From: Zeus faber
Taxonomy: Eukaryota; Chordata; Actinopteri; Zeiformes; Zeidae
Direction of reading: 5' to 3'
Assembly: GCA_960531495.1 (NCBI GenBank)
Contig: OY482866.1
Coordinates: forward strand, 4,405,418 to 4,469,417
Length of the DNA stretch: 64,000 nucleotides
A model generated the notes under the pieces. It saw nothing but the letters and a program-made list of their open reading frames with translations, had not been told where the DNA came from and did not search any database. A program made the position numbers and the translations under genes. Shown here piece after piece: positions 1 to 49,756 of the stretch. The first letter of the stretch is position 1. Every line of letters begins with the position of its first letter.

Positions 1-42
1 CATGACCTCAATTGTTGCTAGGCACTGTCTCCAACAGACCAC

Positions 43-113
43 TGCATTGGCTGGGAATCGAACCCGGGCAACCCGCGTGGCAGGCGAGAATTCTTCCACT
101 GAACCACCAATGC
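43..113 (-). tRNA. tRNA-Gly (GCC), one T-stem mismatch
   Basis: This is 71 nt with anticodon GCC. It differs from the canonical array copy at one base (ctggg for ccggg on the plus strand), which gives a C-A mismatch in the T stem. The A and B boxes are intact, so transcription is plausible. Its unit is cut by the window edge. Confidence 0.8.
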
Positions 114-922
114 TCATGTTCAACTGCTTTTTGCCCCCCCCAAGCTACAGTTAACGGTTAACCCTAACCATAACCCTGATAAAAAGGTTTGCATACCGTC
201 CTGATACTGGACTTTTTTAGATCTTGGCTGTCCTGGAAGTATTGGCCGTTGGGGCAAGGGCAAAAAATCAAGAAAGACAAATTTGAAAGAAGGCTAAATC
301 CTTCGGGGATTTTTATGGCTCTGCGTTCAGATGGCAGTCCCAGATGGAGGCGTGGGTAAAAATCCAGCTTCTGACAAGTTCTTTCTGTAGATGTTATCCT
401 AAATGCCTACTTTGTTTGAGCATTTAGGCAACAGCAGCATAATAACCCAAGCATTCAGACAGTTGACTTGGACCTCACTAGCTCCATGAAGCAACTACCC
501 CATCTTACCTCAGTGTCAAAAGTGAATGCAAGAAGAGGCCATGAACAAGAAGACATTTACTATTTTTGGATCTTGGCGGTCCTGGAATTATTGGGCGTTG
601 TAGCAAGGGCAAAAAATCATGAAAGACAAATTTGAAAGAAGGCCAAACCCTTTGGAGAATTTAACAGCACTGCGTTCAGATGGCAGTCCCAGATGGAGGC
701 GTGGGTAAAAATGCAGCTTCTGACAAGTTCTTTCTGTAGATTCTATCCTAAATGCCTACTTTGCTCGAGCAATTATGCAACAGCAGCATAATGACCTAAG
801 CATCCAGAGAGTTGACTTGGACCTCACTAGCTCCATGTGACCCCTACCCCATCTTATCTCAGTGTCAGCTGTAAAACTTGCATGACCTCAATTGTTGCTA
901 GGCACTGTCTCCAACAGACCAC

Positions 923-992
923 TGCATTGGCCGGGAATAAACCCGGGCAACCCGCGTGGCAGGCGAGAATTCTTCCACTGAACCACCAATGC
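923..992 (-). pseudogene. tRNA-Gly pseudogene, six-base T loop
   Basis: It is 70 nt because the T loop reads TTTATT in place of TTCGATT. This loses the conserved C56-G57 and breaks the B box. The acceptor, D and anticodon (GCC) arms are unchanged. It is probably not transcribed efficiently. Confidence 0.85.
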
Positions 993-1801
993 TCATGTGC
1001 AACTGCTTTTTGCCGCCCCCAAGCTACAGTTAATGGTTAACCCTAACCATAACCCTTATAAAAAGATTCGGATACCGTCCTGATACTGGACTTTTTTGGA
1101 TCTTGGCGGTCCTGGAAGTATTGGCCGTTGCGGCAAGGGCAAAAAATCAAGAAAGACAAAATTGAAAGAAGGCTAAATCCTTCGGGGATTTTTACGGCTC
1201 TGCGTTCAGATGGCAGTCCCAGATGGAGGCGTGGGTAAAAATCCAGCTTCTGACAAGTTCTTTCTGTAAATGTTATCCTAAATGCCTACTTTGTTCGAGC
1301 ATTTAGGCAACAGCAGCATAATAACCCAAGCATTCAGACAGTTGACTTGGACCTCACTAGCTCCATGAAGCAACTACCCCATCTTACCTCAGTGTCAAAA
1401 GTGAATGCAAGAAGAGGCAATGAACAAGAAGACATTTACTATTTTTGGATATTGGCGGTCCTGGAAGTATTGGGCGTTGTAGCAAGGGCAAAAAATCATG
1501 AAAGACAAATTTGAAAGAAGGCCAAACCCTTTGGAGAATTTAACAGCGCTGCGTTCAGATGGCAGTCCCAGATGGAGGCGTGGGTAAAAATGCAGCTTCT
1601 GACAAGTTCTTTCTGTAGATGTTATCCTAAATGCCTACTTTGCTCGAGCAATTATGCAACAGCAGCATAATGACCTAAGCATCCAGAGAGTTGACTTGGA
1701 CCTCACTAGCTCCATGTGACACCTACCCCATCTTATCTCAGTGTCAGCTGTAAAACTTGCATGACCTCAATTGTTGCTAGGCACTGTCTCCAAAAGACCA
1801 C

Positions 1802-1871
1802 TGCATTGGCCGGGAATAAACTCGGGCAACCCGCGTGGCAGGCGAGAATTCTTCCACTGAACCACCAATGC
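1802..1871 (-). pseudogene. tRNA-Gly pseudogene, six-base T loop
   Basis: It has the same TTTATT T loop as the copy at 923 and one further T-stem change (ctcgg on plus for cccgg). The anticodon is GCC. The shared lesion and the ccaaaagacca flank mark it as a near duplicate of its neighbours. Confidence 0.85.
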
Positions 1872-2680
1872 TCATGTGCACCTGCTTTTTGCCGCCCCCA
1901 AGCTACAGTTAATGGTTAACCCTAACCATAACCCTTATAAAAAGATTCGGATACCGTCCTGATACTGGACTTTTTTGGATCTTGGCGGTCCTGGAAGTAT
2001 TGGCCGTTGCGGCAAGGGCAAAAAATCAAGAAAGACAAAATTGAAAGAAGGCTAAATCCTTCGGGGATTTTTACGGCTCTGCGTTCAGATGGCAGTCCCA
2101 GAGGGAGGCGTGGGTAAAAATCCAGCTTCTGACAAGTTCTTTCTGTAAATGTTATCCTAAATGCCTACTTTGTTCGAGCATTTAGGCAACAGCAGCATAA
2201 TAACCCAAGCATTCAGACAGTTGACTTGGACCTCACTAGCTCCATGAAGCAACTACCCCATCTTACCTCAGTGTCAAAAGTGAATGCAAGAAGAGGCAAT
2301 GAACAAGAAGACATTTACTATTTTTGGATATTGGCGGTCCTGGAAGTATTGGGCGTTGTAGCAAGGGCAAAAAATCATGAAAGACAAATTTGAAAGAAGG
2401 CCAAACCCTTTGGAGAATTTAACAGCGCTGCGTTCAGATGGCAGTCCCAGATGGAGGCGTGGGTAAAAATGCAGCTTCTGACAAGTTCTTTCTGTAGATG
2501 TTATCCTAAATGCCTACTTTGCTCGAGCAATTATGCAACAGCAGCATAATGACCTAAGCATCCAGAGAGTTGACTTGGACCTCACTAGCTCCATGTGACA
2601 CCTACCCCATCTTATCTCAGTGTCAGCTGTAAAACTTGCATGACCTCAATTGTTGCTAGGCACTGTCTCCAAAAGACCAC

Positions 2681-2751
2681 TGCATTGGCCGGGAATCAAA
2701 CCCGGGCAACCCGCGTGGCAGGCGAGAATTCTTCCACTGAACCACCAATGC
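2681..2751 (-). tRNA. tRNA-Gly (GCC) with C56 changed
   Basis: It is 71 nt with all stems paired and anticodon GCC. The T loop reads TTTGATT, so the invariant C56 is T and the B box is weakened. It is borderline between a gene and a pseudogene. Confidence 0.7.
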
Positions 2752-3561
2752 TCATGTTCACCTGCTTCTTGCCCCCCCCAAGCTACAGTTAATGGTTAAC
2801 CCTAACCAAAATCCTGATAAAAAGGTTCGCATACCGTCCTGATACTGGACTTTTTTGGATCTTGGCTGTCCTGGAAGTATTGGCCAGTGCGGCAAGGGCA
2901 AAAAATCAAGAAAGACATATTTGAAAGAAGGCCAAATCCTTCGGAGATTTTTACGGTGCTGCGTTCAGATGGCAGTCCCAGATGGAGGCTTGGGTAAAAA
3001 TCCAGCTTCTGACAAGTTCTTTCTGTAGATGTTATCCTAAATGCCTACTTTGCTCGAGCATTTAGGCAACAGCAGTATAATCACCCAAGAATTCAGACAT
3101 TTGACTTGGACCTCACTAGCTCTATGAAGCAACGACCCCATCTTACCTCAGAGTCAAAAGTGAATGCAAGAGGACGCCATGAACAAGAAGACATTTACTA
3201 TTTTTGGATCTTGGCGGTCCTGGAAGTATTGGCCGTTGTAGCAAGGGCAAAAAAATCATGAAAGACAAATTTGAAAGAAGGCCAAACCCTTTGGAGAATT
3301 TAACAGCACTGCGTTCAGATGGCAGTCACAGAGGGAGGCGTGGGTAAAAATCCAGCTTCTGACAAGTTCTTTCTGTAGATGTTATCCTAAATGCCTACTT
3401 TGTTCGAGCAATTATGCAACAGCAGCATAATGACCTAAGCATCCAGAGAGTTGACTTGGACCTCACTAGCTCCATGTGACACCTACCCCATCTTATCTCA
3501 GTGTCAGCTGTAAAACTTGCATGACCTCAATTGTTGCTAGGCACTGTCTGGGACAGACCAC

Positions 3562-3632
3562 TGCATTGGCTGGGAATCGAACCCGGGCAACCCGCGTGGC
3601 AGGCGAGAATTCTTCCACTGAACCACCAATGC
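3562..3632 (-). tRNA. tRNA-Gly (GCC), one T-stem mismatch
   Basis: It has the same single ctggg variant as the copy at 43, with intact boxes and anticodon. The flank just beyond the 3' end has a private gtctgggacagac palindrome. Confidence 0.8.
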
Positions 3633-4441
3633 TCATGTTCAACTGCTTTTTGCCCCCCCCAAGCTACAGTTAATGGTTAACCCTAACCATAACCCTGATA
3701 AAAAGGTTTGCATACCGTCCTGATACTGGACTTTTTTAGATCTTGGCTGTCCTGGAAGTATTGGCCGTTGGGGCAAGGGCAAAAAATCAAGAAAGACAAA
3801 TTTGAAAGAAGGCTAAATCCTTCGGGGATTTTTATGGCTCTGCGTTCAGATGGCAGTCCCAGATGGAGGCGTGGGTAAAAATCCAGCTTCTGACAAGTTC
3901 TTTCTGTAGATGTTATCCTAAATGCCTACTTTGTTTGAGCATTTAGGCAACAGCAGCATAATAACCCAAGCATTCAGACAGTTGACTTGGACCTCACTAG
4001 CTCCATGAAGCAACTACCCCATCTTACCTCAGTGTCAAAAGTGAATGCAAGAAGAGGCCATGAACAAGAAGACATTTACTATTTTTGGATCTTGGCGGTC
4101 CTGGAATTATTGGGCGTTGTAGCAAGGGCAAAAAATCATGAAAGACAAATTTGAAAGAAGGCCAAACCCTTTGGAGAATTTAACAGCACTGCGTTCAGAG
4201 GGCAGTCCCAGATGGAGGCGTGGGTAAAAATGCAGCTTCTGACAAGTTCTTTCTGTAGATTTTATCCTAAATGCCTACTTTGCTCGAGCAATTATGCAAC
4301 AGCAGCATAATCACCCAAGCATCCAGAGAGTTGACTTGGACCTCACTAGCTCCATGTGACACCTACCCCATCTTATCTCAGTGTCAGCTGTAAAATTTGC
4401 ATGACCTCAATTGTTGCTAGGCACTGTCTCCAACAGACCAC

Positions 4442-4512
4442 TACATTGGCCGGGAATCGAACGCGGGCAACCCGCGTGGCAGGCGAGAATTCTTCCACTG
4501 AATCACCAAAGC
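4442..4512 (-). pseudogene. tRNA-Gly relic with weakened stems
   Basis: It is 71 nt with anticodon GCC. The 3' acceptor strand reads CCAATGT, the 5' strand GCTTTGG, and the T stem has a C-C clash (acgcggg on plus), so pairs 1, 3 and 52 are lost or wobble. There is also a D-arm change (GTGATTC). It belongs to a four-member class with 7962, 20968 and 46067. Confidence 0.75.
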
Positions 4513-5321
4513 TCATGTTCAACTGCTTTTTGCCCCCCCCAAGCTACAGTTAATGGTTAACCCTAACCATAACCCTTATAAAAAGGTTCGGATACCGTCC
4601 TGATACTGGACTTTTTTGGATCTTGGCTGTCCTGGAAGTATTGGCCGTTGCGGCAAGGGCAAAAAATCAAAAAAGACATATTTGAAAGAAGGCTAAATCC
4701 TTCGGGGATTTTTACGGCACTGCGTTCAGATGGCAGTCCCAGAGGGAGGCGTGGGTAAAAATCCAGCTTCTGACAAGTTCTTTCTGTAGATTTTATCCTA
4801 AATGCCTACTTTGTTCGAGCATTTAGGCAACAGCAGCATAATAACCCAAGCATTCAGACAGTTGACTTGGACCTCACTAGCTCCATGAAGCAACTACCCC
4901 ATCTTACCTCAGTGTCAAAAGTGAATGCAAGAAGAGGCAATGAACAAGAAGACATTTACTATTTTTGGATATTGGCGGTCCTGGAAGTATTGGGCGTTGT
5001 AGCAAGGGCAAAAAATCATGAAAGACAAATTTGAAAGAAGGCCAAACCCTTTGGAGAATTTAACAGCGCTGCGTTCAGATGGCAGTCCCAGATGGAGGCG
5101 TGGGTAAAAATGCAGCTTCTGACAAGTTCTTTCTGTAGATGTTATCCTAAATGCCTACTTTGCTCGAGCAATTATGCAACAGCAGCATAATGACCTAAGC
5201 ATCCAGAGAGTTGACTTGGACCTCACTAGCTCCATGTGACACCTACCCCATCTTATCTCAGTGTCAGCTGTAAAACTTGCATGACCTCAATTGTTGCTAG
5301 GCACTGTCTCCAAAAGACCAC

Positions 5322-5391
5322 TGCATTGGCCGGGAATAAACCCGGGCAACCCGCGTGGCAGGCGAGAATTCTTCCACTGAACCACTAATGC
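5322..5391 (-). pseudogene. tRNA-Gly pseudogene, six-base T loop
   Basis: It is 70 nt with a TTTATT T loop, plus one acceptor change (accactaatgc on plus) that puts A at position 6. The anticodon is GCC. Confidence 0.85.
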
Positions 5392-8841: not shown

Positions 8842-8912
8842 TGCATTGGCCGGGAATCGAACCCGGGCAACCCGCGTGGGAGGCGAGAATTCTTCCACTA
8901 AACCACCAATGC
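8842..8912 (-). tRNA. tRNA-Gly (CCC)
   Basis: It is 71 nt with all stems paired. The anticodon triplet (plus 8878-8880, ggg) is CCC, one base from GCC, so it would read GGG. It has one further change, C13 to T (GTTT, a G-U pair in the D stem). The B box is intact. The 3' flank has the linked variant gcactgactcc. Confidence 0.9.
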
Positions 8913-12951: not shown

Positions 12952-13761
12952 TCATGTTCACCTGCTTCTTGCCCCCCCCAAGCTACAGTTAATGGTTAAC
13001 CCTAACCAAAATCCTGATAAAAAGGTTCGCATACCGTCCTGATACTGGACTTTTTTGGATCTTGGCTGTCCTGGAAGTATTGGCCAGTGCGGCAAGGGCA
13101 AAAAATCAAGAAAGACATATTTGAAAGAAGGCCAAATCCTTCGGAGATTTTTACGGTGCTGCGTTCAGATGGCAGTCCCAGATGGAGGCGTGGGTAAAAA
13201 TCCAGCTTCTGACAAGTTCTTTCTGTAGATGTTATCCTAAATGCCTACTTTGCTCGAGCATTTAGGCAACAGCAGTATAATCACCCAAGCATTCAGACAG
13301 TTGACTTGGACCTCACTAGCTCTATGAAGCAACGACCCCATCTTACCTCAGAGTCAAAAGTGAATGCAAGAGGACGCCATGAACAAGAAGACATTTACTA
13401 TTTTTGGATCTTGGCGGTCCTGGAAGTATTGGCCGTTGTAGCAAGGGCAAAAAAATCATGAAAGACAAATTTGAAAGAAGGCCAAACCCTTTGGAGAATT
13501 TAACAGCACTGCGTTCAGATGGCAGTCACAGAGGGAGGCGTGGGTAAAAATCCAGCTTCTGACAAGTTCTTTCTGTAGATGTTATCCTAAATGCCTACTT
13601 TGTTCGAGCAATTATGCAACAGCAGCATAATGACCTAAGCATCCAGAGAGTTGACTTGGACCTCACTAGCTCCATGTGACACCTACCCCATCTTATCTCA
13701 GTGTCAGCTGTAAAACTTGCATGACCTCAATTGTTGCTAGGCACTGTCTCCAACAGCCGAC

Positions 13762-13832
13762 TGCATTGGCCGGGAATCGAACCCGGGCAACCCGCGTGGC
13801 AGGCGAGAATTCTTCCACTGAACCACCAATGC
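13762..13832 (-). tRNA. tRNA-Gly (GCC), canonical
   Basis: The tRNA is unchanged. The leader has a private tgcctccccc variant, shared only with the units at 29590 and 41317. The 3' flank reads cagccgactg. Confidence 0.93.
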
Positions 13833-14642
13833 TCATGTTCACCTGCTTCTTGCCTCCCCCAAGCTACAGTTAATGGTTAACCCTAACCAAAATCCTGATA
13901 AAAAGATTCGGATACCGTCCTGATACTGGACTTTTTTGGATCTTGGCGGTCCTGGAAGTATTGGCCGTTGCGGCAAGGGCAAAAAATCAAGAAAGACATA
14001 TTTGAAAGAAGGCTAAATCCTTCGGAGATTTTTACGGTGCTGCGTTCAGATGGCAGTCCCAGATGGAGGCGTGGGTAAAAATCCAGCTTCTGACAAGTTC
14101 TTTCTGTAGATGTTATCCTAAATGCCTACTTTGCTCGAGCATTTAGGCAACAGCAGTATAATCACCCAAGCATTCAGACAGTTGACTTGGACCTCACTAG
14201 CTCTATGAAGCAACGACCCCATCTTACCTCAGAGTCAAAAGTGAATGCAAGAGGACGCCATGAACAAGAAGACATTTACTATTTTTGGATCTTGGCGGTC
14301 CTGGAAGTATTGGCCGTTGTAGCAAGGGCAAAAAAATCATGAAAGACAAATTTGAAAGAAGGCCAAACCCTTTGGAGAATTTAACAGCACTGCGTTCAGA
14401 TGGCAGTCACAGAGGGAGGCGTGGGTAAAAATCCAGCTTCTGACAAGTTCTTTCTGTAGATGTTATCCTAAATGCCTACTTTGTTCGAGCAATTATGCAA
14501 CAGCAGCATAATGACCTAAGCATCCAGAGAGTTGACTTGGACCTCACTAGCTCCATGTGACACCTACCCCATCTTATCTCAGTGTCAGCTGTAAAACTTG
14601 CATGACCTCAATTGTTGCTAGGCACTGTCTCCAACAGCCGAC

Positions 14643-15522: not shown

Positions 15523-15592
15523 TACATTGGCCGGGAATAAACCCGGGCAACCCGCGTGGCAGGCGAGAATTCTTCCACTGAACCACCAAAGC
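15523..15592 (-). pseudogene. tRNA-Gly pseudogene, six-base T loop and relic acceptor
   Basis: It is 70 nt with T loop TTTATT and acceptor GCTTTGG/CCAATGT (mismatch at pair 3). Anticodon GCC. It combines two lesion types. Confidence 0.85.
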
Positions 15593-18859: not shown

Positions 18860-18929
18860 TACATTGGCCGGGAATAAACCCGGGCAACCCGCGTGGCAGG
18901 CGAGAATTCTTCCACTGAACCACCAAAGC
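18860..18929 (-). pseudogene. tRNA-Gly pseudogene, six-base T loop and relic acceptor
   Basis: It carries the same double lesion as 15523 and is 70 nt long. Confidence 0.85.
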
Positions 18930-20086: not shown

Positions 20087-20157
20087 TGCATTGGCCGGGA
20101 ATCGAACCCGGGCAACCCGCGTGGGAGGCGAGAATTCTTCCACTAAACCACCAATGC
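20087..20157 (-). tRNA. tRNA-Gly (CCC)
   Basis: It carries the same two changes as 8842 (anticodon CCC, T13), with boxes and stems intact. It keeps the linked gcactgactcc flank. Confidence 0.9.
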
Positions 20158-21847: not shown

Positions 21848-21918
21848 TGCATTGGCCGGGAATCGAACCCGGGCAACCCGCGTGGGAGGCGAGAATTCTT
21901 CCACTAAACCACCAATGC
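21848..21918 (-). tRNA. tRNA-Gly (CCC)
   Basis: This is the third CCC copy, identical to 20087 within the tRNA. The leader just upstream carries a ggttatccct variant. Confidence 0.9.
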
Positions 21919-27827: not shown

Positions 27828-27898
27828 TACATTGGCCGGGAATCGAACGCGGGCAACCCGCGTGGCAGGCGAGAATTCTTCCACTGAACCACCAATGC
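27828..27898 (-). pseudogene. tRNA-Gly, mosaic of relic and canonical halves
   Basis: It has the same composition as 12000: relic 3' half with a T-stem clash and a canonical 5' half. It is the first unit of a repeated four-unit block. Confidence 0.75.
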
Positions 27899-28708
27899 TC
27901 ATGTTCACCTGCTTCTTGCCCCCCCCAAGCTACAGTTAATGGTTAACCCTAACCAAAATCCTGATAAAAAGGTTCGCATACCGTCCTGATACTGGACTTT
28001 TTTGGATCTTGGCTGTCCTGGAAGTATTGGCCAGTGCGGCAAGGGCAAAAAATCAAGAAAGACATATTTGAAAGAAGGCCAAATCCTTCGGAGATTTTTA
28101 CGGTGCTGCGTTCAGATGGCAGTCCCAGATGGAGGCGTGGGTAAAAATCCAGCTTCTGACAAGTTCTTTCTGTAGATGTTATCCTAAATGCCTACTTTGC
28201 TCGAGCATTTAGGCAACAGCAGTATAATCACCCAAGCATTCAGACAGTTGACTTGGACCTCACTAGCTCTATGAAGCAACGACCCCATCTTACCTCAGAG
28301 TCAAAAGTGAATGCAAGAGGACGCCATGAACAAGAAGACATTTACTATTTTTGGATCTTGGCGGTCCTGGAAGTATTGGCCGTTGTAGCAAGGGCAAAAA
28401 AATCATGAAAGACAAATTTGAAAGAAGGCCAAACCCTTTGGAGAATTTAACAGCACTGCGTTCAGATGGCAGTCCCAGATGGAGGCGTGGGTAAAAATGC
28501 AGCTTCTGACAAGTTCTTTCTGTAGATTTTATCCTAAATGCCTACTTTGCTCGAGCAATTATGCAACAGCAGCATAATCACCCAAGCATCCAGAGAGTTA
28601 ACTTGGACCTCACTAGCTCCATGTGACACCTACCCCATCTTATCTCAGTGTCAGCTGTAAAACTTGCATGACCTCAATTGTTGCTAGGCACTGTCTCCAA
28701 CAGACCAC

Positions 28709-28779
28709 TGCATTGGCCGGGAATCGAACCCGGGCAACCCGCGTGGCAGGCGAGAATTCTTCCACTGAACCACCAATGC
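28709..28779 (-). tRNA. tRNA-Gly (GCC), canonical
   Basis: It is unchanged; second unit of the repeated block (equivalent to 12881 and 40436). Confidence 0.93.
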
Positions 28780-29589
28780 TCATGTTCACCTGCTTCTTGC
28801 CCCCCCCAAGCTACAGTTAATGGTTAACCCTAACCAAAATCCTGATAAAAAGGTTCGCATACCGTCCTGATACTGGACTTTTTTGGATCTTGGCTGTCCT
28901 GGAAGTATTGGCCAGTGCGGCAAGGGCAAAAAATCAAGAAAGACATATTTGAAAGAAGGCCAAATCCTTCGGAGATTTTTACGGTGCTGCGTTCAGATGG
29001 CAGTCCCAGATGGAGGCGTGGGTAAAAATCCAGCTTCTGACAAGTTCTTTCTGTAGATGTTATCCTAAATGCCTACTTTGCTCGAGCATTTAGGCAACAG
29101 CAGTATAATCACCCAAGCATTCAGACAGTTGACTTGGACCTCACTAGCTCTATGAAGCAACGACCCCATCTTACCTCAGAGTCAAAAGTGAATGCAAGAG
29201 GACGCCATGAACAAGAAGACATTTACTATTTTTGGATCTTGGCGGTCCTGGAAGTATTGGCCGTTGTAGCAAGGGCAAAAAAATCATGAAAGACAAATTT
29301 GAAAGAAGGCCAAACCCTTTGGAGAATTTAACAGCACTGCGTTCAGATGGCAGTCACAGAGGGAGGCGTGGGTAAAAATCCAGCTTCTGACAAGTTCTTT
29401 CTGTAGATGTTATCCTAAATGCCTACTTTGTTCGAGCAATTATGCAACAGCAGCATAATGACCTAAGCATCCAGAGAGTTGACTTGGACCTCACTAGCTC
29501 CATGTGACACCTACCCCATCTTATCTCAGTGTCAGCTGTAAAACTTGCATGACCTCAATTGTTGCTAGGCACTGTCTCCAACAGCCGAC

Positions 29590-29660
29590 TGCATTGGCCG
29601 GGAATCGAACCCGGGCAACCCGCGTGGCAGGCGAGAATTCTTCCACTGAACCACCAATGC
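29590..29660 (-). tRNA. tRNA-Gly (GCC), canonical
   Basis: It is unchanged; its leader has the tgcctccccc marker shared with 13762 and 41317. Confidence 0.93.
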
Positions 29661-30470
29661 TCATGTTCACCTGCTTCTTGCCTCCCCCAAGCTACAGTTA
29701 ATGGTTAACCCTAACCAAAATCCTGATAAAAAGATTCGGATACCGTCCTGATACTGGACTTTTTTGGATCTTGGCGGTCCTGGAAGTATTGGCCGTTGCG
29801 GCAAGGGCAAAAAATCAAGAAAGACATATTTGAAAGAAGGCTAAATCCTTCGGAGATTTTTACGGTGCTGCGTTCAGATGGCAGTCCCAGATGGAGGCGT
29901 GGGTAAAAATCCAGCTTCTGACAAGTTCTTTCTGTAGATGTTATCCTAAATGCCTACTTTGCTCGAGCATTTAGGCAACAGCAGTATAATCACCCAAGCA
30001 TTCAGACAGTTGACTTGGACCTCACTAGCTCTATGAAGCAACGACCCCATCTTACCTCAGAGTCAAAAGTGAATGCAAGAGGACGCCATGAACAAGAAGA
30101 CATTTACTATTTTTGGATCTTGGCGGTCCTGGAAGTATTGGCCGTTGTAGCAAGGGCAAAAAAATCATGAAAGACAAATTTGAAAGAAGGCCAAACCCTT
30201 TGGAGAATTTAACAGCACTGCGTTCAGATGGCAGTCACAGAGGGAGGCGTGGGTAAAAATCCAGCTTCTGACAAGTTCTTTCTGTAGATGTTATCCTAAA
30301 TGCCTACTTTGTTCGAGCAATTATGCAACAGCAGCATAATGACCTAAGCATCCAGAGAGTTGACTTGGACCTCACTAGCTCCATGTGACACCTACCCCAT
30401 CTTATCTCAGTGTCAGCTGTAAAACTTGCATGACCTCAATTGTTGCTAGGCACTGTCTCCAACAGCCGAC

Positions 30471-30541
30471 TGCATTGGCCGGGAATCGAACCCGGGCAAC
30501 CCGCGTGGCAGGCGAGAATTCTTCCACTGAACCACCAATGC
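30471..30541 (-). tRNA. tRNA-Gly (GCC), canonical
   Basis: It is unchanged; fourth unit of the repeated block (equivalent to 14643 and 42198). Confidence 0.93.
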
Positions 30542-31699
30542 TCATGTTCACCTGCTTCTTGCCCCCCCCAAGCTACAGTTAATGGTTAACCCTAACCAAA
30601 ATCCTGATAAAAAGATTCGGATACCGTCCTGATACTGGACTTTTTTGGATCTTGGCGGTCCTGGAAGTATTGGCCGTTGCGGCAAGGGCAAAAAATCAAG
30701 AAAGACATATTTGAAAGAAGGCTAAATCCTTCGGGGATTTTTACGGCACTGCGTTCAGATGGCAGTCCCAGAGGGAGGCGTGGGTAAAAATCCAGCTTCT
30801 GACAAGTTCTTTCTGTAGATTTTATCCTAAATGCCTACTTTCTTCGAGCATTTAGGCAACAGCAGTATAATCACCCAAGCATTCAGAAAGTTGGCATGGA
30901 CCTCACAAGCTCCATGAAGCAACGACCCCATCTTACCTCAGAGTCAAAAGTGAATGCAAGAAGACGCCAGGAACAAGAAGACATTTACTATTTATGGATC
31001 TTGGCGGTCCTGGAAGTATTGGCCGTTGCGGCAAGGGCAAAAAATCAAGAAAGACATATTTGAAAGAAGGCTAAATCCTTCGGGGATTTTTACGGCGCTG
31101 CGTTCAGATGGCAGTCCCAGAGGGAGGCGTGGGTAAAAATCCAGCTTCTGACAAGTTCTTTCTGTAGATGTTATCCTAAATGCCTACTTTGCTCGAGCAT
31201 TTAGGCAACAGCAGTATAATCACCCAAGCATTCAGACAGTTGACTTGGACCTCACTAGCTCCATGAAGCAACGACCCCATCTTACCTCAGAGTCAAAAGT
31301 GAATGCAAGAAGACGCCATGAACAAGAAGACATTTACTATTTTTGGATCTTGGCGGTCCTGGAATTATTGGGCGTTGTAGCAAGGGCAAAAAATCATGAA
31401 AGACAAATTTGAAAGAAGGCCAAACCCTTTGGAGAATTTAACAGCACTGCGTTCAGATGGCAGTCCCAGATGGAGGCGTGGGTAAAAATGCAGCTTCTGA
31501 CAAGTTCTTTCTGTAGATTTTATTCTAAATGCCTACTTTGCTCGAGCAATTATGCAACAGCAGCATAATCACCCAAGCATCCAGAGAGTTGACTTGGACC
31601 TCACTAGCTCCATGTGACACCTACCCCATCTTATCTCAGTGTCAGCTGTAAAACTTGCGAGACCTCAATTGTTGTTAGGCACTGTCTCCAACAGACCAC
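30542..31699. repeat. Three half-units (one extra)
   Basis: The tRNA spacing is 1229 bp; it contains the gttggcatggacctcac half-unit. Confidence 0.88.
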
Positions 31700-38096: not shown

Positions 38097-38904
38097 TCAT
38101 GTTCAACTGCTTTTTGCCCCCCCCAAGCTACAGTTAATGGTTAACCCTAACCATAACCCTTATAAAAAGGTTCGGATACCGTCCTGATACTGGACTTTTT
38201 GGGATCTTGGCGGTCCTGGAAGTATTGGCCGTTGCGGCAAGGGCAAAAAATCAAGAAAGACATATTTGAAAGAAGGCTAAATCCTTCGGGGATTTTTACG
38301 GCACTGCGTTCAGATGGCAGTCCCAGATGGAGGCGTGGGTAAAAATCCAGCTTCTGACAAGTTCTTTCTGTAGATGTTATCCTAAATGCCTACTTTGTTC
38401 GAGCATTTAGGCAACAGCAGCATAATAACTCAAGCATTCAGACAGTTGACTTGGACCACACTAGCTCCATGAAGCAACTACCCCATCTTACCTCAGTGTC
38501 AAAAGTGAATGCAAGAAGAGGCCATGAACAAGAAGACATTTACTATTTTTGGATCTTGGCGGTCCTGGAATTATTGGGCGTTGTAGCAAGGGCAAAAAAT
38601 CATGAAAGACAAATTTGAAAGAAGGCCAAACCCTTTGGAGAATTTAACAGCACTGCGTTCAGATGGCAGTCCCAGATGGAGGCGTGGGTAAAAATGCAGC
38701 TTCTGACAAGTTCTTTCTGTAGATTTTATTCTAAATGCCTACTTTGCTCGAGCGATTATGCAACAGCAGCATAATCACCCAAGCATCCAGAGAGTTAACT
38801 TGGACCTCACTAGCTCCATGTGACACCTACCCCATCTTATCTCAGTGTCAGCTGTAAAATTTGCATGACCTCAATTGTTGCTAGGCACTGTCTCCAACAG
38901 ACCA

Positions 38905-38938
38905 CTACATTGGCCGGGAATAAACCCGGCCAATGTAG
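38905..38938. other. Fold-back tRNA remnant: perfect 14-bp hairpin
   Basis: The sequence enters a tRNA-Gly pseudogene of the six-base T-loop class from its 3' end (ctacattggccggg, 38905-38918) and reads the loop aataaa. It then continues with the exact reverse complement of the entered bases (38925-38938). It resumes in the spacer at cctaaccaaaatcc, so the rest of the tRNA is missing. This is the signature expected of a fold-back or template switch during DNA synthesis. Confidence 0.9.
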
Positions 38939-38940
38939 CC

Positions 38941-39468: not shown

Positions 39469-39554
39469 GTGACACCTACCCCATCTTATCTCAGTGTCAG
39501 CTGTAAAATTTGCATGACCTCAATTGTTGCTAGGCACTGTCTCCAACAGACCAC

Positions 39555-39625
39555 TACATTGGCCGGGAATCGAACGCGGGCAACCCGCGTGGCAGGCGAG
39601 AATTCTTCCACTGAACCACCAATGC
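39555..39625 (-). pseudogene. tRNA-Gly, mosaic of relic and canonical halves
   Basis: It is of the 12000 class; first unit of the third copy of the four-unit block. Confidence 0.75.
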
Positions 39626-40435
39626 TCATGTTCACCTGCTTCTTGCCCCCCCCAAGCTACAGTTAATGGTTAACCCTAACCAAAATCCTGATAAAAAGGT
39701 TCGCATACCGTCCTGATACTGGACTTTTTTGGATCTTGGCTGTCCTGGAAGTATTGGCCAGTGCGGCAAGGGCAAAAAATCAAGAAAGACATATTTGAAA
39801 GAAGGCCAAATCCTTCGGAGATTTTTACGGTGCTGCGTTCAGATGGCAGTCCCAGATGGAGGCGTGGGTAAAAATCCAGCTTCTGACAAGTTCTTTCTGT
39901 AGATGTTATCCTAAATGCCTACTTTGCTCGAGCATTTAGGCAACAGCAGTATAATCACCCAAGCATTCAGACAGTTGACTTGGACCTCACTAGCTCTATG
40001 AAGCAACGACCCCATCTTACCTCAGAGTCAAAAGTGAATGCAAGAGGACGCCATGAACAAGAAGACATTTACTATTTTTGGATCTTGGCGGTCCTGGAAG
40101 TATTGGCCGTTGTAGCAAGGGCAAAAAAATCATGAAAGACAAATTTGAAAGAAGGCCAAACCCTTTGGAGAATTTAACAGCACTGCGTTCAGATGGCAGT
40201 CCCAGATGGAGGCGTGGGTAAAAATGCAGCTTCTGACAAGTTCTTTCTGTAGATTTTATCCTAAATGCCTACTTTGCTCGAGCAATTATGCAACAGCAGC
40301 ATAATCACCCAAGCATCCAGAGAGTTAACTTGGACCTCACTAGCTCCATGTGACACCTACCCCATCTTATCTCAGTGTCAGCTGTAAAACTTGCATGACC
40401 TCAATTGTTGCTAGGCACTGTCTCCAACAGACCAC

Positions 40436-40506
40436 TGCATTGGCCGGGAATCGAACCCGGGCAACCCGCGTGGCAGGCGAGAATTCTTCCACTGAACCAC
40501 CAATGC
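40436..40506 (-). tRNA. tRNA-Gly (GCC), canonical
   Basis: It is unchanged over 71 nt. Confidence 0.93.
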
Positions 40507-41316
40507 TCATGTTCACCTGCTTCTTGCCCCCCCCAAGCTACAGTTAATGGTTAACCCTAACCAAAATCCTGATAAAAAGGTTCGCATACCGTCCTGATAC
40601 TGGACTTTTTTGGATCTTGGCTGTCCTGGAAGTATTGGCCAGTGCGGCAAGGGCAAAAAATCAAGAAAGACATATTTGAAAGAAGGCCAAATCCTTCGGA
40701 GATTTTTACGGTGCTGCGTTCAGATGGCAGTCCCAGATGGAGGCGTGGGTAAAAATCCAGCTTCTGACAAGTTCTTTCTGTAGATGTTATCCTAAATGCC
40801 TACTTTGCTCGAGCATTTAGGCAACAGCAGTATAATCACCCAAGCATTCAGACAGTTGACTTGGACCTCACTAGCTCTATGAAGCAACGACCCCATCTTA
40901 CCTCAGAGTCAAAAGTGAATGCAAGAGGACGCCATGAACAAGAAGACATTTACTATTTTTGGATCTTGGCGGTCCTGGAAGTATTGGCCGTTGTAGCAAG
41001 GGCAAAAAAATCATGAAAGACAAATTTGAAAGAAGGCCAAACCCTTTGGAGAATTTAACAGCACTGCGTTCAGATGGCAGTCACAGAGGGAGGCGTGGGT
41101 AAAAATCCAGCTTCTGACAAGTTCTTTCTGTAGATGTTATCCTAAATGCCTACTTTGTTCGAGCAATTATGCAACAGCAGCATAATGACCTAAGCATCCA
41201 GAGAGTTGACTTGGACCTCACTAGCTCCATGTGACACCTACCCCATCTTATCTCAGTGTCAGCTGTAAAACTTGCATGACCTCAATTGTTGCTAGGCACT
41301 GTCTCCAACAGCCGAC

Positions 41317-41387
41317 TGCATTGGCCGGGAATCGAACCCGGGCAACCCGCGTGGCAGGCGAGAATTCTTCCACTGAACCACCAATGC
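41317..41387 (-). tRNA. tRNA-Gly (GCC), canonical
   Basis: It is unchanged; its leader has the tgcctccccc marker. Confidence 0.93.
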
Positions 41388-42197
41388 TCATGTTCACCTG
41401 CTTCTTGCCTCCCCCAAGCTACAGTTAATGGTTAACCCTAACCAAAATCCTGATAAAAAGATTCGGATACCGTCCTGATACTGGACTTTTTTGGATCTTG
41501 GCGGTCCTGGAAGTATTGGCCGTTGCGGCAAGGGCAAAAAATCAAGAAAGACATATTTGAAAGAAGGCTAAATCCTTCGGAGATTTTTACGGTGCTGCGT
41601 TCAGATGGCAGTCCCAGATGGAGGCGTGGGTAAAAATCCAGCTTCTGACAAGTTCTTTCTGTAGATGTTATCCTAAATGCCTACTTTGCTCGAGCATTTA
41701 GGCAACAGCAGTATAATCACCCAAGCATTCAGACAGTTGACTTGGACCTCACTAGCTCTATGAAGCAACGACCCCATCTTACCTCAGAGTCAAAAGTGAA
41801 TGCAAGAGGACGCCATGAACAAGAAGACATTTACTATTTTTGGATCTTGGCGGTCCTGGAAGTATTGGCCGTTGTAGCAAGGGCAAAAAAATCATGAAAG
41901 ACAAATTTGAAAGAAGGCCAAACCCTTTGGAGAATTTAACAGCACTGCGTTCAGATGGCAGTCACAGAGGGAGGCGTGGGTAAAAATCCAGCTTCTGACA
42001 AGTTCTTTCTGTAGATGTTATCCTAAATGCCTACTTTGTTCGAGCAATTATGCAACAGCAGCATAATGACCTAAGCATCCAGAGAGTTGACTTGGACCTC
42101 ACTAGCTCCATGTGACACCTACCCCATCTTATCTCAGTGTCAGCTGTAAAACTTGCATGACCTCAATTGTTGCTAGGCACTGTCTCCAACAGCCGAC

Positions 42198-42268
42198 TGC
42201 ATTGGCCGGGAATCGAACCCGGGCAACCCGCGTGGCAGGCGAGAATTCTTCCACTGAACCACCAATGC
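42198..42268 (-). tRNA. tRNA-Gly (GCC), canonical
   Basis: It is unchanged over 71 nt. Confidence 0.93.
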
Positions 42269-43426
42269 TCATGTTCACCTGCTTCTTGCCCCCCCCAAGC
42301 TACAGTTAATGGTTAACCCTAACCAAAATCCTGATAAAAAGATTCGGATACCGTCCTGATACTGGACTTTTTTGGATCTTGGCGGTCCTGGAAGTATTGG
42401 CCGTTGCGGCAAGGGCAAAAAATCAAGAAAGACATATTTGAAAGAAGGCTAAATCCTTCGGGGATTTTTACGGCACTGCGTTCAGATGGCAGTCCCAGAG
42501 GGAGGCGTGGGTAAAAATCCAGCTTCTGACAAGTTCTTTCTGTAGATTTTATCCTAAATGCCTACTTTCTTCGAGCATTTAGGCAACAGCAGTATAATCA
42601 CCCAAGCATTCAGAAAGTTGGCATGGACCTCACAAGCTCCATGAAGCAACGACCCCATCTTACCTCAGAGTCAAAAGTGAATGCAAGAAGACGCCAGGAA
42701 CAAGAAGACATTTACTATTTATGGATCTTGGCGGTCCTGGAAGTATTGGCCGTTGCGGCAAGGGCAAAAAATCAAGAAAGACATATTTGAAAGAAGGCTA
42801 AATCCTTCGGGGATTTTTACGGCGCTGCGTTCAGATGGCAGTCCCAGAGGGAGGCGTGGGTAAAAATCCAGCTTCTGACAAGTTCTTTCTGTAGATGTTA
42901 TCCTAAATGCCTACTTTGCTCGAGCATTTAGGCAACAGCAGTATAATCACCCAAGCATTCAGACAGTTGACTTGGACCTCACTAGCTCCATGAAGCAACG
43001 ACCCCATCTTACCTCAGAGTCAAAAGTGAATGCAAGAAGACGCCATGAACAAGAAGACATTTACTATTTTTGGATCTTGGCGGTCCTGGAATTATTGGGC
43101 GTTGTAGCAAGGGCAAAAAATCATGAAAGACAAATTTGAAAGAAGGCCAAACCCTTTGGAGAATTTAACAGCACTGCGTTCAGATGGCAGTCCCAGATGG
43201 AGGCGTGGGTAAAAATGCAGCTTCTGACAAGTTCTTTCTGTAGATTTTATCCTAAATGCCTACTTTGCTCGAGCAATTATGCAACAGCAGCATAATCACC
43301 CAAGCATCCAGAGAGTTGACTTGGACCTCACTAGCTCCATGTGACACCTACCCCATCTTATCTCAGTGTCAGCTGTAAAACTTGCATGACCTCAATTGTT
43401 GTTAGGCACTGTCTCCAACAGACCAC

Positions 43427-44027: not shown

Positions 44028-45185
44028 TCATGTTCAACTGCTTTTTGCCCCCCCCAAGCTACAGTTAATGGTTAACCCTAACCATAACCCTTATAAAAAG
44101 GTTCGGATACCGTCCTGATACTGGACTTTTTTGGATCTTGGCTGTCCTGGAAGTATTGGCCGTTGCGGCAAGGGCAAAAAATCAAGAAAGACATATTTGA
44201 AAGAAGGCTAAATCCTTCGGGGATTTTTACGGCACTGCGTTCAGATGGCAGTCCCAGAGGGAGGCGTGGGTAAAAATCCAGCTTCTGACAAGTTCTTTCT
44301 GTAGATGTTATCCTAAATGCCTACTTTGTTCGAGCATTTAGGCAACAGCAGCATAATAACCCAAGCATTCAGACAGTTGACTTGGACCTCACTAGCTCCA
44401 TGAAGCAACTACCCCATCTTACCTCAGTGTCAAAAGTGAATGCAAGAAGAGGCCATGAAAGAGAAGACATTTACTATTTTTGGATCTTGGCGGTCCTGGA
44501 AGTATTGGCCGTTGCGGCAAGGGCAAAAAATCAAGAAAGACATATTTGAAAGAAGGCTAAATCCTTCGGGGATTTTTACGGCGCTGCGTTCAGATGGCAG
44601 TCCCAGAGGGAGGCGTGGGTAAAAATCCAGCTTCTGACAAGTTCTTTCTGTAGATGTTATCCTAAATGCCTACTTTGCTCGAGCATTTAGGCAACAGCAG
44701 TATAATCACCCAAGCATTCAGACAGTTGACTTGGACCTCACTAGCTCCATGAAGCAACTACCCCATCTTACCTCAGTGTCAAAAGTGAATGCAAGAAGAG
44801 GCCATGAACAAGAAGACATTTACTATTTTTGGATCTTGGCGGTCCTGGAAGTATTGGGCGTTGTAGCATGGGCAAAAAATCATGAAAGACAAATTTGAAA
44901 GAAGGCCAAATCCTTTGGAGAATTTAACAGCACTGCGTTCGGATGGCAGTCCCAGATGGAGGCGTGGGAAAAAATGCAGCTTCTGACAAGTTCTTTCTGT
45001 AGATTTTATCCTAAATGCCTACTTTGCTCGAGCAATTATGCAACAGCAGCATAATCACCCAGGCATCCAGAGAGTTGACTTGGACCTCACTAGCTCCATG
45101 TGACACCTACCCCATCTTATCTCAGTGTCAGCTGTAAAACTTGCATGACCTCAATTGTTGCTAGGCACTGACTCCAACAGACCAC
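44028..45185. repeat. Three half-units (one extra)
   Basis: The tRNA spacing is 1228 bp, leading to a CCC copy exactly as at 18.9-20.1 kb. Confidence 0.88.
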
Positions 45186-45256
45186 TGCATTGGCCGGGAA
45201 TCGAACCCGGGCAACCCGCGTGGGAGGCGAGAATTCTTCCACTAAACCACCAATGC
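45186..45256 (-). tRNA. tRNA-Gly (CCC)
   Basis: This is the fourth CCC copy, identical in the tRNA to 20087, and it lies in an equivalent block. Confidence 0.9.
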
Positions 45257-46066
45257 TCATGTTCAACCGCTTTTTGCCCCCCCCCAAGCTACAGTTAATG
45301 GTTAACCCTAACCATAACCCTGATAAAAAGGTTCGCATACCGTCCTGATACTGGACTTTTTTGGATCTTGGCTGTCCTGGAAGTATTGGCCGTTGCGGCA
45401 AGGGCAAAAAATCAAAAAAGACATATTTGAAAGAAGGCTAAATCCTTCGGGGATTTTTACGGCACTGCGTTCAGATGGCAGTCCCAGATGGAGGCGTGGG
45501 TAAAAATCCAGCTTCTGACAAGTTCTTTCTGTAGATGTTATCCTAAATGCCTACTTTGTTCGAGCATTTAGGCAACAGCAGCATAATAACCCAAGCATTC
45601 AGACAGTTGACTTGGACCACACTAGCTCCATGAAGCAACTACCCCATCTTACCTCAGTGTCAAAAGTGAATGCAAGAAGAGGCCATGAACAAGAAGACAT
45701 TTACTATTTTTGGATCTTGGCGGTCCTGGAATTATTGGGCGTTGTAGCAAGGGCAAAAAATCATGAAAGACAAATTTGAAAGAAGGCCAAACCCTTTGGA
45801 GAATTTAACAGCACTGCGTTCAGATGGCAGTCCCAGATGGAGGCGTGGGTAAAAATGCAGCTTCTGACAAGTTCTTTCTGTAGATTTTATTCTAAATGCC
45901 TACTTTGCTCGAGCAATTATGCAACAGCAGCATAATCACCCAAGCATCCAGAGAGTTAACTTGGACCTCACTAGCTCCATGTGACACCTACCCCATCTTA
46001 TCTCAGTGTCAGCTGTAAAATTTGCATGACCTCAATTGTTGCTAGGCACTGTCTCCAACAGACCAC

Positions 46067-46137
46067 TACATTGGCCGGGAATCGAACGCGGGCAACCCGC
46101 GTGGCAGGCGAGAATTCTTCCACTGAATCACCAAAGC
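46067..46137 (-). pseudogene. tRNA-Gly relic with weakened stems
   Basis: It is of the 4442 class and follows a CCC copy, as 20968 does. Confidence 0.75.
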
Positions 46138-46947
46138 TCATGTTCAACTGCTTTTTGCCCCCCCCCAAGCTACAGTTAATGGTTAACCCTAACCATAACC
46201 CTTATAAAAAGGTTCGGATACCGTCCTGATACTGGACTTTTTTGGATCTTGGCTGTCCTGCAAGTATTGGCCGTTGCGGCAAGGGCAAAAAATCAAGAAA
46301 GACATATTTGAAAGAAGGCCAAATCCTTCGGAGATTTTTACGGTGCTGCGTTCAGATGGCAGTCCCAGATGGAGGTGTGGGTAAAAATCCAGCTTCTGAC
46401 AAGTTCTTTCTGTAGATGTTATCCTAAATGCCTACTTTGCTCGAGCATTTAGGCAACAGCAGTATAATCACCCAAGCATTCAGACAGTTGACTTGGACCT
46501 CACTAGCTCTATGAAGCAACGACGCCATCTTACCTCAGAGTCAAAAGTGAATGCAAGAGGACGCCATGAACAAGAAGACATTTACTATTTTTGGATCTTG
46601 GCGGTCCTGGAAGTATTGGGCGTTGTAGCAAGGGCAAAAAATCATGAAAGACAAATTTGAAAGAAGGCCAAACCCTTTGGAGAATTTAACAGCACCGCGT
46701 TCAGATGGCAGTCCCAGATGGAGGCATGGGTAAAAATGCAGCTTCTGACAAGTTCTTTCTGTAGATGTTATCCTAAATGCCTACTTTGTCCGAGCATTTA
46801 GGCAACAGCAGCATAGTAACCCAAGCATTCAGACAGTTGACTTGGACCTCACTAGCTCCATGTGACACCTACCCCATCTTATCTCAGTGTCAGCTGTAAA
46901 ACTTGCATGACCTCAATTGTTGCTAGGCACTGTCTCCAACAGACCAC

Positions 46948-47018
46948 TGCATTGGCCGGGAATCGAACCCGGTCAACCCGCGTGGCAGGCGAGAATTCTT
47001 CCACTGAACCACCAATGC
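46948..47018 (-). tRNA. tRNA-Gly (GCC), variable-loop variant
   Basis: It is canonical except for one variable-loop base (cggtcaac on plus). The stems and boxes are intact. Confidence 0.85.
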
Positions 47019-47827
47019 TCATGTGCACCTGCTTTTTGCCCCCCCCAAGCTACAGTTAATGGTTAACCCTAACCATAACCCTTATAAAAAGGTTCGGATA
47101 CCGTCCTGATACTGGACTTTTTTGGATCTTGGCGGTCCTGGAAGTATTGGCCGTTGCGGCAAGGGCAAAAAATCAAGAAAGACATATTTGAAAGAAGGCT
47201 AAATCCTTCGGGGATTTTTACGGCGCTGCGTTCAGATGGCAGTCCCAGAGGGAGGCGTGGGTAAAAATCCAGCTTCTGACAAGTTGTTTCTGTAGATGTT
47301 ATCCTAAATGCCTACTTTGTTCGAGCATTTAGGCAACAGCAGCATAATAACCCAAGCATTCAGACAGTTGACTTGGACCACACTAGCTCCATGAAGCAAC
47401 TACCCCATCTTACCTCAGTGTCAAAAGTGAATGCAAGAAGAGGCCATGAACAAGAAGACATTTACTATTTTTGGATCTTGGCGGTCCTGGAAGTATTGGG
47501 CGTTGTAGCAAGGGAAAAAAATCATGAAAGACAAATTTGAAAGAAGGCCAAACCCTTTGGAGAATTTAACAGCACTGCGTTCAGATGGCAGTCCCAGATG
47601 GAGGCGTGGGTAAAAATGCAGCTTCTGACAAGTTCTTTCTGTAGATTTTATCCTAAATGCCTACTTTGCTCGAGCAATTATGCAACAGCAGCATAATCAC
47701 CCAAGCATCCAGAGATTTGACTTGGACCTCACTAGCTCCATGTGACACCTACCCCATCTTATCTCAGTGTCAGCTGTAAAACTTGCATGACCTCAATTGT
47801 TGCTAGGCACTGTCTCCGACAGCCGAC

Positions 47828-47898
47828 TGCATTGGCCGGGAATCGAACCCAGGCAACCCGCGTGGCAGGCGAGAATTCTTCCACTGAACCACCAATGC
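47828..47898 (-). tRNA. tRNA-Gly (GCC), G-U in T stem
   Basis: It is canonical except for cccagg on plus, which turns T-stem pair 50-64 into U-G. Probably still a gene. Confidence 0.85.
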
Positions 47899-48707
47899 TC
47901 ATGTTCACCTGCTTCTTGCCCCCCCCAAGCTACAGTTAATGGTTAACCCTAACCAAAATCCTGAAAAAAAGATTCGGATACCGTCCTGATACTGGACTTT
48001 TTTGGATCTTGGCGGTCCTGGAAGTATTGGCCGTTGCGGCAAGGGCAAAAAATCAAGAAAGACAAAATTGAAAGAAGGCTAAATCCTTCGGGGATTTTTA
48101 CGGCTCTGCGTTCAGATGGCAGTCCCAGAGGGAGGCGTGGGTAAAAATCCAGCTTCTGACAAGTTCTTTCTGTAAATGTTATCCTAAATGCCTACTTTGT
48201 TCGAGCATTTAGGCAACAGCAGCATAATAACCCAAGCATTCAGACAGTTGACTTGGACCTCACTAGCTCCATGAAGCAACTACCCCATCTTACCTCAGTG
48301 TCAAAAGTGAATGCAAGAAGAGGCAATGAACAAGAAGACATTTACTATTTTTGGATATTGGCGGTCCTGGAAGTATTGGGCGTTGTAGCAAGGGCAAAAA
48401 ATCATGAAAGACAAATTTGAAAGAAGGCCAAACCCTTTGGAGAATTTAACAGCGCCGCGTTCAGATGGCAGTCCCAGATGGAGGCATGGGTAGAAATGCA
48501 GCTTCTGACAAGTTCTTTCTGTAGATGTTATCCTAAATGCCTACTTTGTCCGAGCATTTAGGCAACAGCAGCATAGTAACCCAAGCATTCAGACAGTTGA
48601 CTTGGACCTCACTAGCTCTATGAAGCAACGACCCCATCTTACCTCAGTGTCAGCTGTAAAACTTGCATGACCTCAATTGTTGCTAGGCACTGTCTCCAAC
48701 AGACCAC

Positions 48708-48778
48708 TGCATTGGCCTGAAATCGAACCCGGGCAACCCGCATGGCAGGCGAGAATTCTTCCACTGAACCACCAATGC
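48708..48778 (-). pseudogene. tRNA-Gly, diverged copy near array edge
   Basis: It is 71 nt with anticodon GCC, but has T-stem changes (cctga on plus) and an anticodon-stem change (cgcatgg). The 5' flank lacks the usual tccatgtgacacc motif and has the half-unit version, so the unit is a recombinant. Confidence 0.75.
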
Positions 48779-49587
48779 TCATGTGCACCTGCTTTTTGCC
48801 CCCCCCAAGCTACAGTTAATGGTTAACCCTAACCATAACCCTTATAAAAAGGTTCGGATACCGTCCTGATACTGGACTTTTTTGGATCTTGGCGGTCCTG
48901 GAAGTATTGGCCGTTGCGGCAAGGGCAAAAAATCAAGAAAGACAAAATTGAAAGAAGGCTAAATCCTTCGGGGATTTTTACGGCTCTGCGTTCAGATGGC
49001 AGTCCCAGCGGGAGGCGTGGGTAAAAATCCAGCTTCTGACAAGTTCTTTCTGTAGATGTTATCCTAAATGCCTACTTTGTTCGAGCATTTAGGCAACAGC
49101 AGTATAATCACCCAAGCATTCAGACAGTTGACTTGGACCTCACTAGCTCCATGAAGCAACTACCCCATCTTACCTCAGTGTCAAAAGTGAATGCAAGAAG
49201 AGGCCATGAATAAGAAGACATTTACTATTTTTGGATCTTGGCGGTCCTGGAAGTATTGGGCGTTGTAGCAAGGGCAAAAAATCATGAAAGACAAATTTGA
49301 AAGAAGGCCAAACCCTTTGGAGAATTTTACAGCACTGCGTTCAGATGGCAGTCCCAGATGGAGGCGTGGGTAAAAATGCAGCTTCTGACAAGTTCTTTCT
49401 GTAGATTTTATCCTAAATGCCTACTTTGCTCGAGCAATTATGCAACAGCAGCATAATCACCCAAGCATCCAGAGAGTTGACTTGGACTTCACTAGCTCCA
49501 TGTGACACCTACCCCATCTTATCTCAGTGTCAGCTGTAAAACTTGCATGACCTCAATTGTTGTTAGGCACTGTCTCCAACAGACCAC

Positions 49588-49658
49588 GGCATTGGCCGGG
49601 AATCAAACCCGGACCTCACGCGTGGCAGGCGAGAATCCTTCCACTGAACCACCAATGC
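49588..49658 (-). pseudogene. Last tRNA-Gly of the array, diverged
   Basis: This is the right-most copy, 71 nt with anticodon GCC. It has TTTGATT in the T loop, a T-T clash in the anticodon stem (GCGTG), C at the discriminator and a changed D arm. Its variable region reads AGGT rather than the array's TTGC, closer to the AGGC that I recall as the usual vertebrate state. Confidence 0.75.
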
Positions 49659-49756
49659 TCATGTGTGACAGCTTTTTGCCCCCCCCCAAGCTACAGTTAA
49701 TGGATAACCCTAACCATAACCCTGATAAAAAGGTTTGGATACAGTCCTGATACTGT

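Follow-up and report, generated by a model that had tools for sequence, protein, structure and literature searches.

Tandem repeats with tRNA parts have been described in amphibians, mammals and fish. The amphibian families PolIII/TAN of the newt Cynops (~360 nt), OAX/satellite I of Xenopus and Rana/polIII carry a tRNA-like segment (PMC10702118), and the 7.3-kb unit of the 1q23.3 tRNA gene (tDNA) variable tandem repeat of human and mouse includes a CTCF site and five tRNA genes that are conserved in both species (PMC4041453). In the armored catfish Harttia, satellites mix tRNA genes with tRNA-derived satellite DNA and form complex mosaics with parts of short and long interspersed elements (SINEs and LINEs; PMC11955569). 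Clustered tDNAs are known from zebrafish and stickleback, and adjacent pairs in Danio are nearly all parallel and mostly of different isotypes (PMC2888827); for the tRNA-rich region of zebrafish Chr4R, maternal tRNA use has been proposed, although untested there (PMC11075544). Here we describe a satellite array of tRNA-Gly genes in a 64-kb window of the Zeus faber genome (C22:4405418-4469417, window position 1 being C22:4405418). We consider it probable that this satellite derived from a tRNA gene cluster and that the tRNA-Gly is its passenger.

ARAGORN called 51 tRNA-Gly genes in the window, all on the minus strand between positions 43 and 49658, with anticodon GCC in 47 and CCC in four. Rfam RF00005 matched the same 51 copies at 44.0-61.3 bits, all above the Rfam tRNA threshold, and dinucleotide-preserving shuffles of the array (n = 20) yielded 0 tRNA calls in each. 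An earlier reading made from the letters of the window (the sequence-only reading) had counted at least 51 minus-strand copies, and both programs bear this out. It had also called this count a minimum, as the array runs off the left edge: in the source genome, where it is read leftwards, the whole array spans ~70.6 kb (C22:4384596-4455172), with 74 ARAGORN calls, of which 28 have exactly the majority sequence, and 164 merged sub-repeat cores. The genome searched totals 803 Mb over 153 contigs, of which unplaced ones may represent haplotypes; genome-wide locus counts are lower bounds.

The array unit consists of a 226-bp tRNA module and cores of a 349-bp sub-repeat. The window holds 116 cores, one truncated, of which mostly two (range 1 to 6) lie between neighbouring tRNA calls. 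Neighbour spacing is 879-881 bp, the modal value, in 37 of 50 intervals and ranges from 531 to 2278 bp in the remaining 13. A full 71-nt tRNA-Gly in every 880-bp period, as first proposed, therefore describes the modal arrangement and not the whole: 13 spacings differ, seven of the 51 copies are 70 nt long with an altered T loop, and one further copy has collapsed. The array in the window, with one unit as an example, is laid out as follows.

1-49756, minus strand: right-hand part of the tRNA-Gly satellite array (ARAGORN, Rfam)
13707-13932, minus strand: example 226-bp tRNA module, made of upstream 100 bp, tRNA-Gly(GCC) and downstream 55 bp
13833-13932, minus strand: upstream part of the module, 100 bp, with telomere-like motifs
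13762-13832, minus strand: tRNA-Gly(GCC) of the majority sequence, 21/51 copies (ARAGORN, Rfam)
13707-13761, minus strand: downstream part of the module, 55 bp, with the first TTTT 46 nt past the gene
13933-14237, minus strand: sub-repeat core, type B, 305 bp (305 + 44-bp spacer = 349)
14238-14281, minus strand: 44-bp inter-core spacer, replaced by the 226-bp tRNA module at module positions
14033-14096, plus strand (opposite to tRNA-Gly): decayed tRNA-Leu(CAG) in the core, 83% over 64 nt, E 5e-16
43, 923, 1802, 2681, 3562, 4442, 5322, 6201, 7082, 7962, 8842, 11120, 12000, 12881, 13762, 14643, 15523, minus strand: starts of window tRNA-Gly copies 1-17
16751, 17980, 18860, 20087, 20968, 21848, 22728, 23608, 25186, 26067, 26948, 27828, 28709, 29590, 30471, 31700, 32580, minus strand: starts of copies 18-34
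33461, 34690, 35570, 36798, 38026, 39555, 40436, 41317, 42198, 43427, 43958, 45186, 46067, 46948, 47828, 48708, 49588, minus strand: starts of copies 35-51

The tRNA-Gly copies vary as freely as the flanking DNA, with no greater constraint on the tRNA. End copies were left out of these comparisons, which cover 49/51 copies in the window set and 72/74 in the full-array set. In the latter, 22 of 71 tRNA sites and 140 of 455 flanking sites are variable (odds ratio 1.01). Nucleotide diversity (pi) in the window was 0.0302 in the tRNA vs 0.0366, 0.0440, 0.0347 and 0.0302 in four adjoining segments, and 30 of 78 sliding windows had a pi equal to or below that of the tRNA. The claim of the sequence-only reading that the tRNA stays constant while its flanks vary was thus not upheld. 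On a parsimony tree of the window set, the tRNA underwent 28 changes, where stretches of 71 columns had a median of 26. Of the 28, 20 fell in the 42 stem sites and 8 in the other 29 sites; the two internal promoter boxes, of 11 sites each, took four (A box) and nine (B box), and in the full array the B box reached a pi of 0.061 vs 0.038 in flanks. No stem pair was changed on both sides among the 16 distinct tRNA-Gly sequences of the window, compared in a set of 20 copies that represents them all. When the array consensus was compared with L023 and L027, two of several dispersed relics, the three branches were 0.056, 0.085 and 0.113 long for the tRNA vs 0.035, 0.042 and 0.052 for the flank. Masking of constraint by CpG decay was considered and rejected, as neither CpG sites (6/14 vs 35/70, p 0.77) nor others (8/57 vs 118/696, p 0.71) showed a significant deficit.

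The copies range from intact to broken, and broken types have multiplied as well. Both internal boxes are kept in 32 of the 51 window copies, 27 of which also keep all stem pairs, and box or stem damage affects 24/51. The majority type, with 21 identical copies, has both RNA polymerase III (Pol III) boxes intact, as previously read, and its whole acceptor stem is paired. Three damaged types have each been amplified to four copies in the window, the same number as the intact CCC type. Across the full array, consensus A and B boxes occur in 46/74 copies, and boxes with all stem pairs in 35/74, a count that only 71-nt copies could enter. The copies and blocks concerned are listed here.

8842-8912, 20087-20157, 21848-21918 and 45186-45256, minus strand: tRNA-Gly with anticodon CCC, one type with C13T and G33C
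15523-15592, also at 18860, 35570 and 43958, minus strand: damaged type of 70 nt with a broken B box and a broken acceptor pair 3, amplified to four identical copies
27828-31699 and 39555-43426, minus strand: duplicated block pair, 99.92% over 3872 bp
38902-38940, minus strand: collapsed further tRNA, no ARAGORN call
49588-49658, minus strand: edge copy 51, with T41, A43-G44 and T54 as in the paralogous single gene C22:4885955-4886025

The block pair is a recent multi-monomer duplication that carried along one damaged and three intact tRNA copies. In the collapsed copy, the 3' arm of the tRNA stands a second time, reverse-complemented, in place of the 5' part, giving a perfect hairpin, a pattern that would be expected from a fold-back template switch. 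The switch of anticodon from GCC to CCC is linked to C13T in one amplified type. The signatures AGTGGAA and TTGC, proposed earlier as marks of the array, were recovered in 51/51 and 49/51 window copies, respectively, and TTGC (TT43-44) in 72/74 copies of the full array. TT43-44 of the array is derived, because T41, A43-G44 and T54 occur both in edge copy 51 and in the paralogue L036, whereas A19 is common to the array and its relatives.

The 349-bp sub-repeat holds a second tRNA gene, a decayed and dead tRNA-Leu(CAG). The tRNA-Leu(CAG) gene of the paralogous region L036 scores 56.3 bits, and over its 3'-terminal 64 nt it matches the core on the plus strand (83%, E 5e-16). The core consensus aligned to this gene at 67.1 bits, with 1000 shuffles giving 23.8 at most. 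The 5' end of the gene, including the A box, found no match in the core, and ARAGORN called no tRNA there. The position of the Leu B box is readable in 107 of 115 cores, and its TTC is kept in 0/107. Among cores the relic shows no exceptional conservation, 66 of 242 windows being as low.

A terminator close to the gene is also missing from most tRNA-Gly copies. Among the 50 window copies with readable downstream sequence, the first TTTT (T4) lies 46 nt past the gene in 46 and 6 nt past it in four; in the full array it lies at +46 in 69/74 and at +6 in 4/74, and one copy has none within 60 nt. A T4 within 20 nt of the gene end is therefore present in 4/74 copies and missing in 70/74. As a control, six Gly-GCC loci elsewhere in the genome (<=2 mismatches from the canonical sequence) carried a T4 or longer run at +6/+7 in three cases; since half of the control loci also lack one, the deficit is suggestive and not proof. 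An ancestral T4 at +6 was rejected: copies 3, 4, 7 and 8 have it, but it is absent from the relatives L036, L039 and L023.

The neighbourhood of the array points to its source. On the same contig, a paralogous block (C22:4872001-4898000; L037, L036 and L038) carries one Gly-TCC, one relic, one Gly-GCC and one Leu-CAG. The relic is named Asn by ARAGORN, and we take it to be Ser-like. The DNA to the left of the array includes a Gly-TCC and a relic similar to that of the block, and C22:4377801-4380868 aligns piecewise, at 78-91% identity, with the left-hand portion of the block. To the right lies the following segment.

56051-63188, plus strand: right flank collinear with DNA right of the paralogue's Gly-GCC/Leu-CAG pair (C22:4888784-4895525), pieces of 88-93% identity

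The array thus has on either side the neighbours that flank the single Gly/Leu pair in the block, and we read this as growth in place. Decayed modules occur at other places, near tRNA-Pro or tRNA-Leu genes, in a survey that included eight of the relative loci retrieved. The array would have arisen in one copy of a multi-tRNA block, in which the Leu gene probably lost its 5' end, and the unit may then have spread and been homogenised by unequal exchange and block duplication. The tRNA-Gly would have been carried as a passenger rather than kept by selection on translation. The tandem unit with a tRNA-derived segment, the duplicated block and the diverged edge copy all agree with a tRNA-derived satellite. 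Transcription factor IIIC (TFIIIC) may still bind some intact copies, or these may be transcribed into precursors with a long trailer, with most array transcription expected to be weak or silenced. The sequence-only reading had offered three options for the locus: supply of a tRNA species, a TFIIIC-rich chromatin domain, or a selfish repeat that happens to contain a tRNA. The last fits best, because constraint on the tRNA does not exceed that on its flanks, damaged types have been amplified, the near terminator is missing in 70/74 copies and the sub-repeat holds a dead tRNA-Leu; the supply option is retained at low probability.

Several observations weigh against a passenger tRNA in a cluster-derived satellite. 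Full-array pi is slightly lower in the tRNA than in flanks (0.0318 vs 0.0381), the A box alone stands below the flanks at 0.024, and the non-CpG point estimate is 0.022 in the tRNA vs 0.030 in flanks. Even in an array that was in use, so much redundancy would leave each copy under weak selection. The commonest tRNA type is intact, as are the 35 copies with both boxes and all pairs, and the majority sequence has only three differences, all in loops, from what we take to be the vertebrate Gly-GCC. A T4 at +6/+7 is likewise absent from 3/6 other Gly-GCC loci. As to origin, collinearity with the paralogous block is lacking over the 3.7 kb that adjoin the array on the left and the 6.3 kb on the right, some pieces of the right-hand 6.3 kb matching it in reverse or elsewhere. 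The exact founding event of the array is not seen, since the adjoining DNA is not collinear. Finally, at least six near-canonical Gly-GCC loci outside the family stand against 35 intact array copies, so that the array could matter if transcribed.

This last point bears on the most probable alternative, namely that the locus is a functional tRNA gene array from which a large share of the tRNA-Gly(GCC) comes, perhaps solely in oocytes, like the maternal 5S genes on zebrafish Chr4R, with Pol III starting at the internal boxes and stopping at the TTTT at +46. We counted loci within three mismatches of the canonical Gly-GCC; more distant isodecoders fall outside the count. The genome holds at least 37: six on C10-C13 (0 to 2 mismatches; one perfect), 28 in the array and three relatives on C56, C118 and C151. 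The array is therefore numerically dominant in this count, and its exact tRNA sequence, with at least 28 copies, was found only there in the genome search. Together with the at least six loci outside the family, the intact state of the commonest type and of 35/74 copies, the near fixation of TT43-44 throughout the array and the maternal tRNA genes proposed (untested there) for zebrafish Chr4R (PMC11075544) speak for supply. Set against this are a variability not under that of the flanks, with stems and B box changed most, the amplification of damaged types, the absence of a T4 within 20 nt in 70/74 copies and the loss of the Leu relic's B box in all 107 readable cores. We consider a supply array unlikely. 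In a more specific form, which we consider improbable, a private tRNA-Gly(GCC) isodecoder (marked by T43-T44, its A19 being common to the relatives as well) would come mainly from the array and be switched on in oocytes or early embryos; if true, a satellite would have taken over a housekeeping tRNA supply, and copy number would set its dose.

Alternatively, the array could act as a TFIIIC- or Pol III-bound chromatin domain or boundary, in which the boxes would matter and the tRNA product would not. The B box is the main TFIIIC contact, and here it is not conserved, with nine changes in 11 sites in the window and its full-array pi above that of the flanks. Consensus A and B boxes in 46/74 copies and the low pi of the A box agree with such a role, which has been proposed as boundary function for the human 1q23.3 tDNA repeat (PMC4041453), but we judge it quite doubtful here. 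A SINE-derived satellite, the tRNA part being a retroposon head amplified in tandem as in the satellites known from SINEs with tRNA heads in scaled reptiles (PMC10702118), is very improbable: the whole acceptor stem pairs in the majority sequence, no CCA follows the gene in window copies, no UnaL2 3' element (the only LINE tail looked for) lies within the array, and the same DNA sits in blocks with other full-length tRNA genes. We conclude that a satellite grown from a tRNA gene cluster, with tRNA-Gly as passenger, is the probable reading.

Some further features of the array were recorded. Telomere-like TAACCC/TAACCA runs lie upstream of the tRNA in modules (for example, window 13833-13932), and the plus strand of the array has CCCTAA 52 times and TTAGGG 0 times. 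The sub-repeat length of 349 and the spacings 531, 880, 1229, 1578 and 2278 approximate multiples of 174.5-177 bp, near nucleosome repeat size; a spacing of 1529, which includes the module with the collapsed tRNA, does not. No CENP-B box was found on either strand of the window, an absence that does not exclude a centromere. Besides the tRNA, other RNA families gave only matches far under Rfam thresholds in the array unit, and a scan of IMG/VR with the array tRNA gave 0 matches. The idea that core types A and B share a conserved block was dismissed, the longest identical run (43 columns) being reached in 7984 of 20000 shuffles.

Other observations concern relatives and flanks. The tRNA-Gly(TCC) genes left of the array (L011:3386-3457) and in the paralogous block (L037:2426-2497) score 63-65 bits and differ at acceptor pair 2 on both sides (A-T vs C-G), a compensated change by eye. 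Core relatives L007 (C19) and L008 (C8) have tRNA-Pro and tRNA-Leu genes nearby, and the contig ends are ~126 and ~131 kb away; they are possibly subtelomeric, and no telomere array was found in the last 2 kb of the C19 and C8 contigs. The right flank contains a UnaL2 LINE 3' element (window 54194-54247, 64.8 bits), of a kind that points to a fish genome, a 59-bp tandem repeat (50776-50953) and a long CA run (59748-59854). Its open reading frames (9 of 26 listed) gave no Pfam family over the cut-off and one match under it, which we take as chance.

These results suggest that many tRNA calls by a scanner are no guarantee of an ample supply of tRNA. The private bases T43-T44 offer a clean marker for use of satellite-borne tRNAs, which bears on the tRNA question of zebrafish Chr4R. 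Stages from tRNA cluster to satellite are visible within one genome, which has a single-gene block, relics scattered elsewhere, an edge copy that has diverged and an array with higher-order structure.

Our literature search found no title or abstract opening that describes this array, and its likeness to known systems is partial. As the amphibian families are described, the array resembles them as a tandem repeat with a tRNA-derived segment, and the unit length of PolIII/TAN is similar to that of the 349-bp sub-repeat; compared by description, it differs in its full-length tRNA-Gly, with about half of the copies intact, in the second, dead tRNA (Leu) in the sub-repeat and in its two repeat levels (PMC10702118). 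With the 1q23.3 tDNA repeat it shares, by the account in PMC4041453, tandem amplification of a cluster containing tRNA-Gly and tRNA-Leu, but the unit here is 0.88 kb and holds one full-length tRNA no more conserved than its spacer. Like the Harttia satellites it is a fish satellite with tRNA pieces, whereas an array of one tRNA gene, as here, is not described in the parts of PMC11955569 consulted. As in the zebrafish and stickleback clusters reported in PMC2888827, fish tRNA genes are concentrated here, but in contrast to the zebrafish pairs they are of one isotype on one strand. What is new in this locus is that one full-length tRNA is joined to a sub-repeat with a second, dead tRNA, while the single-gene block persists on the same chromosome.

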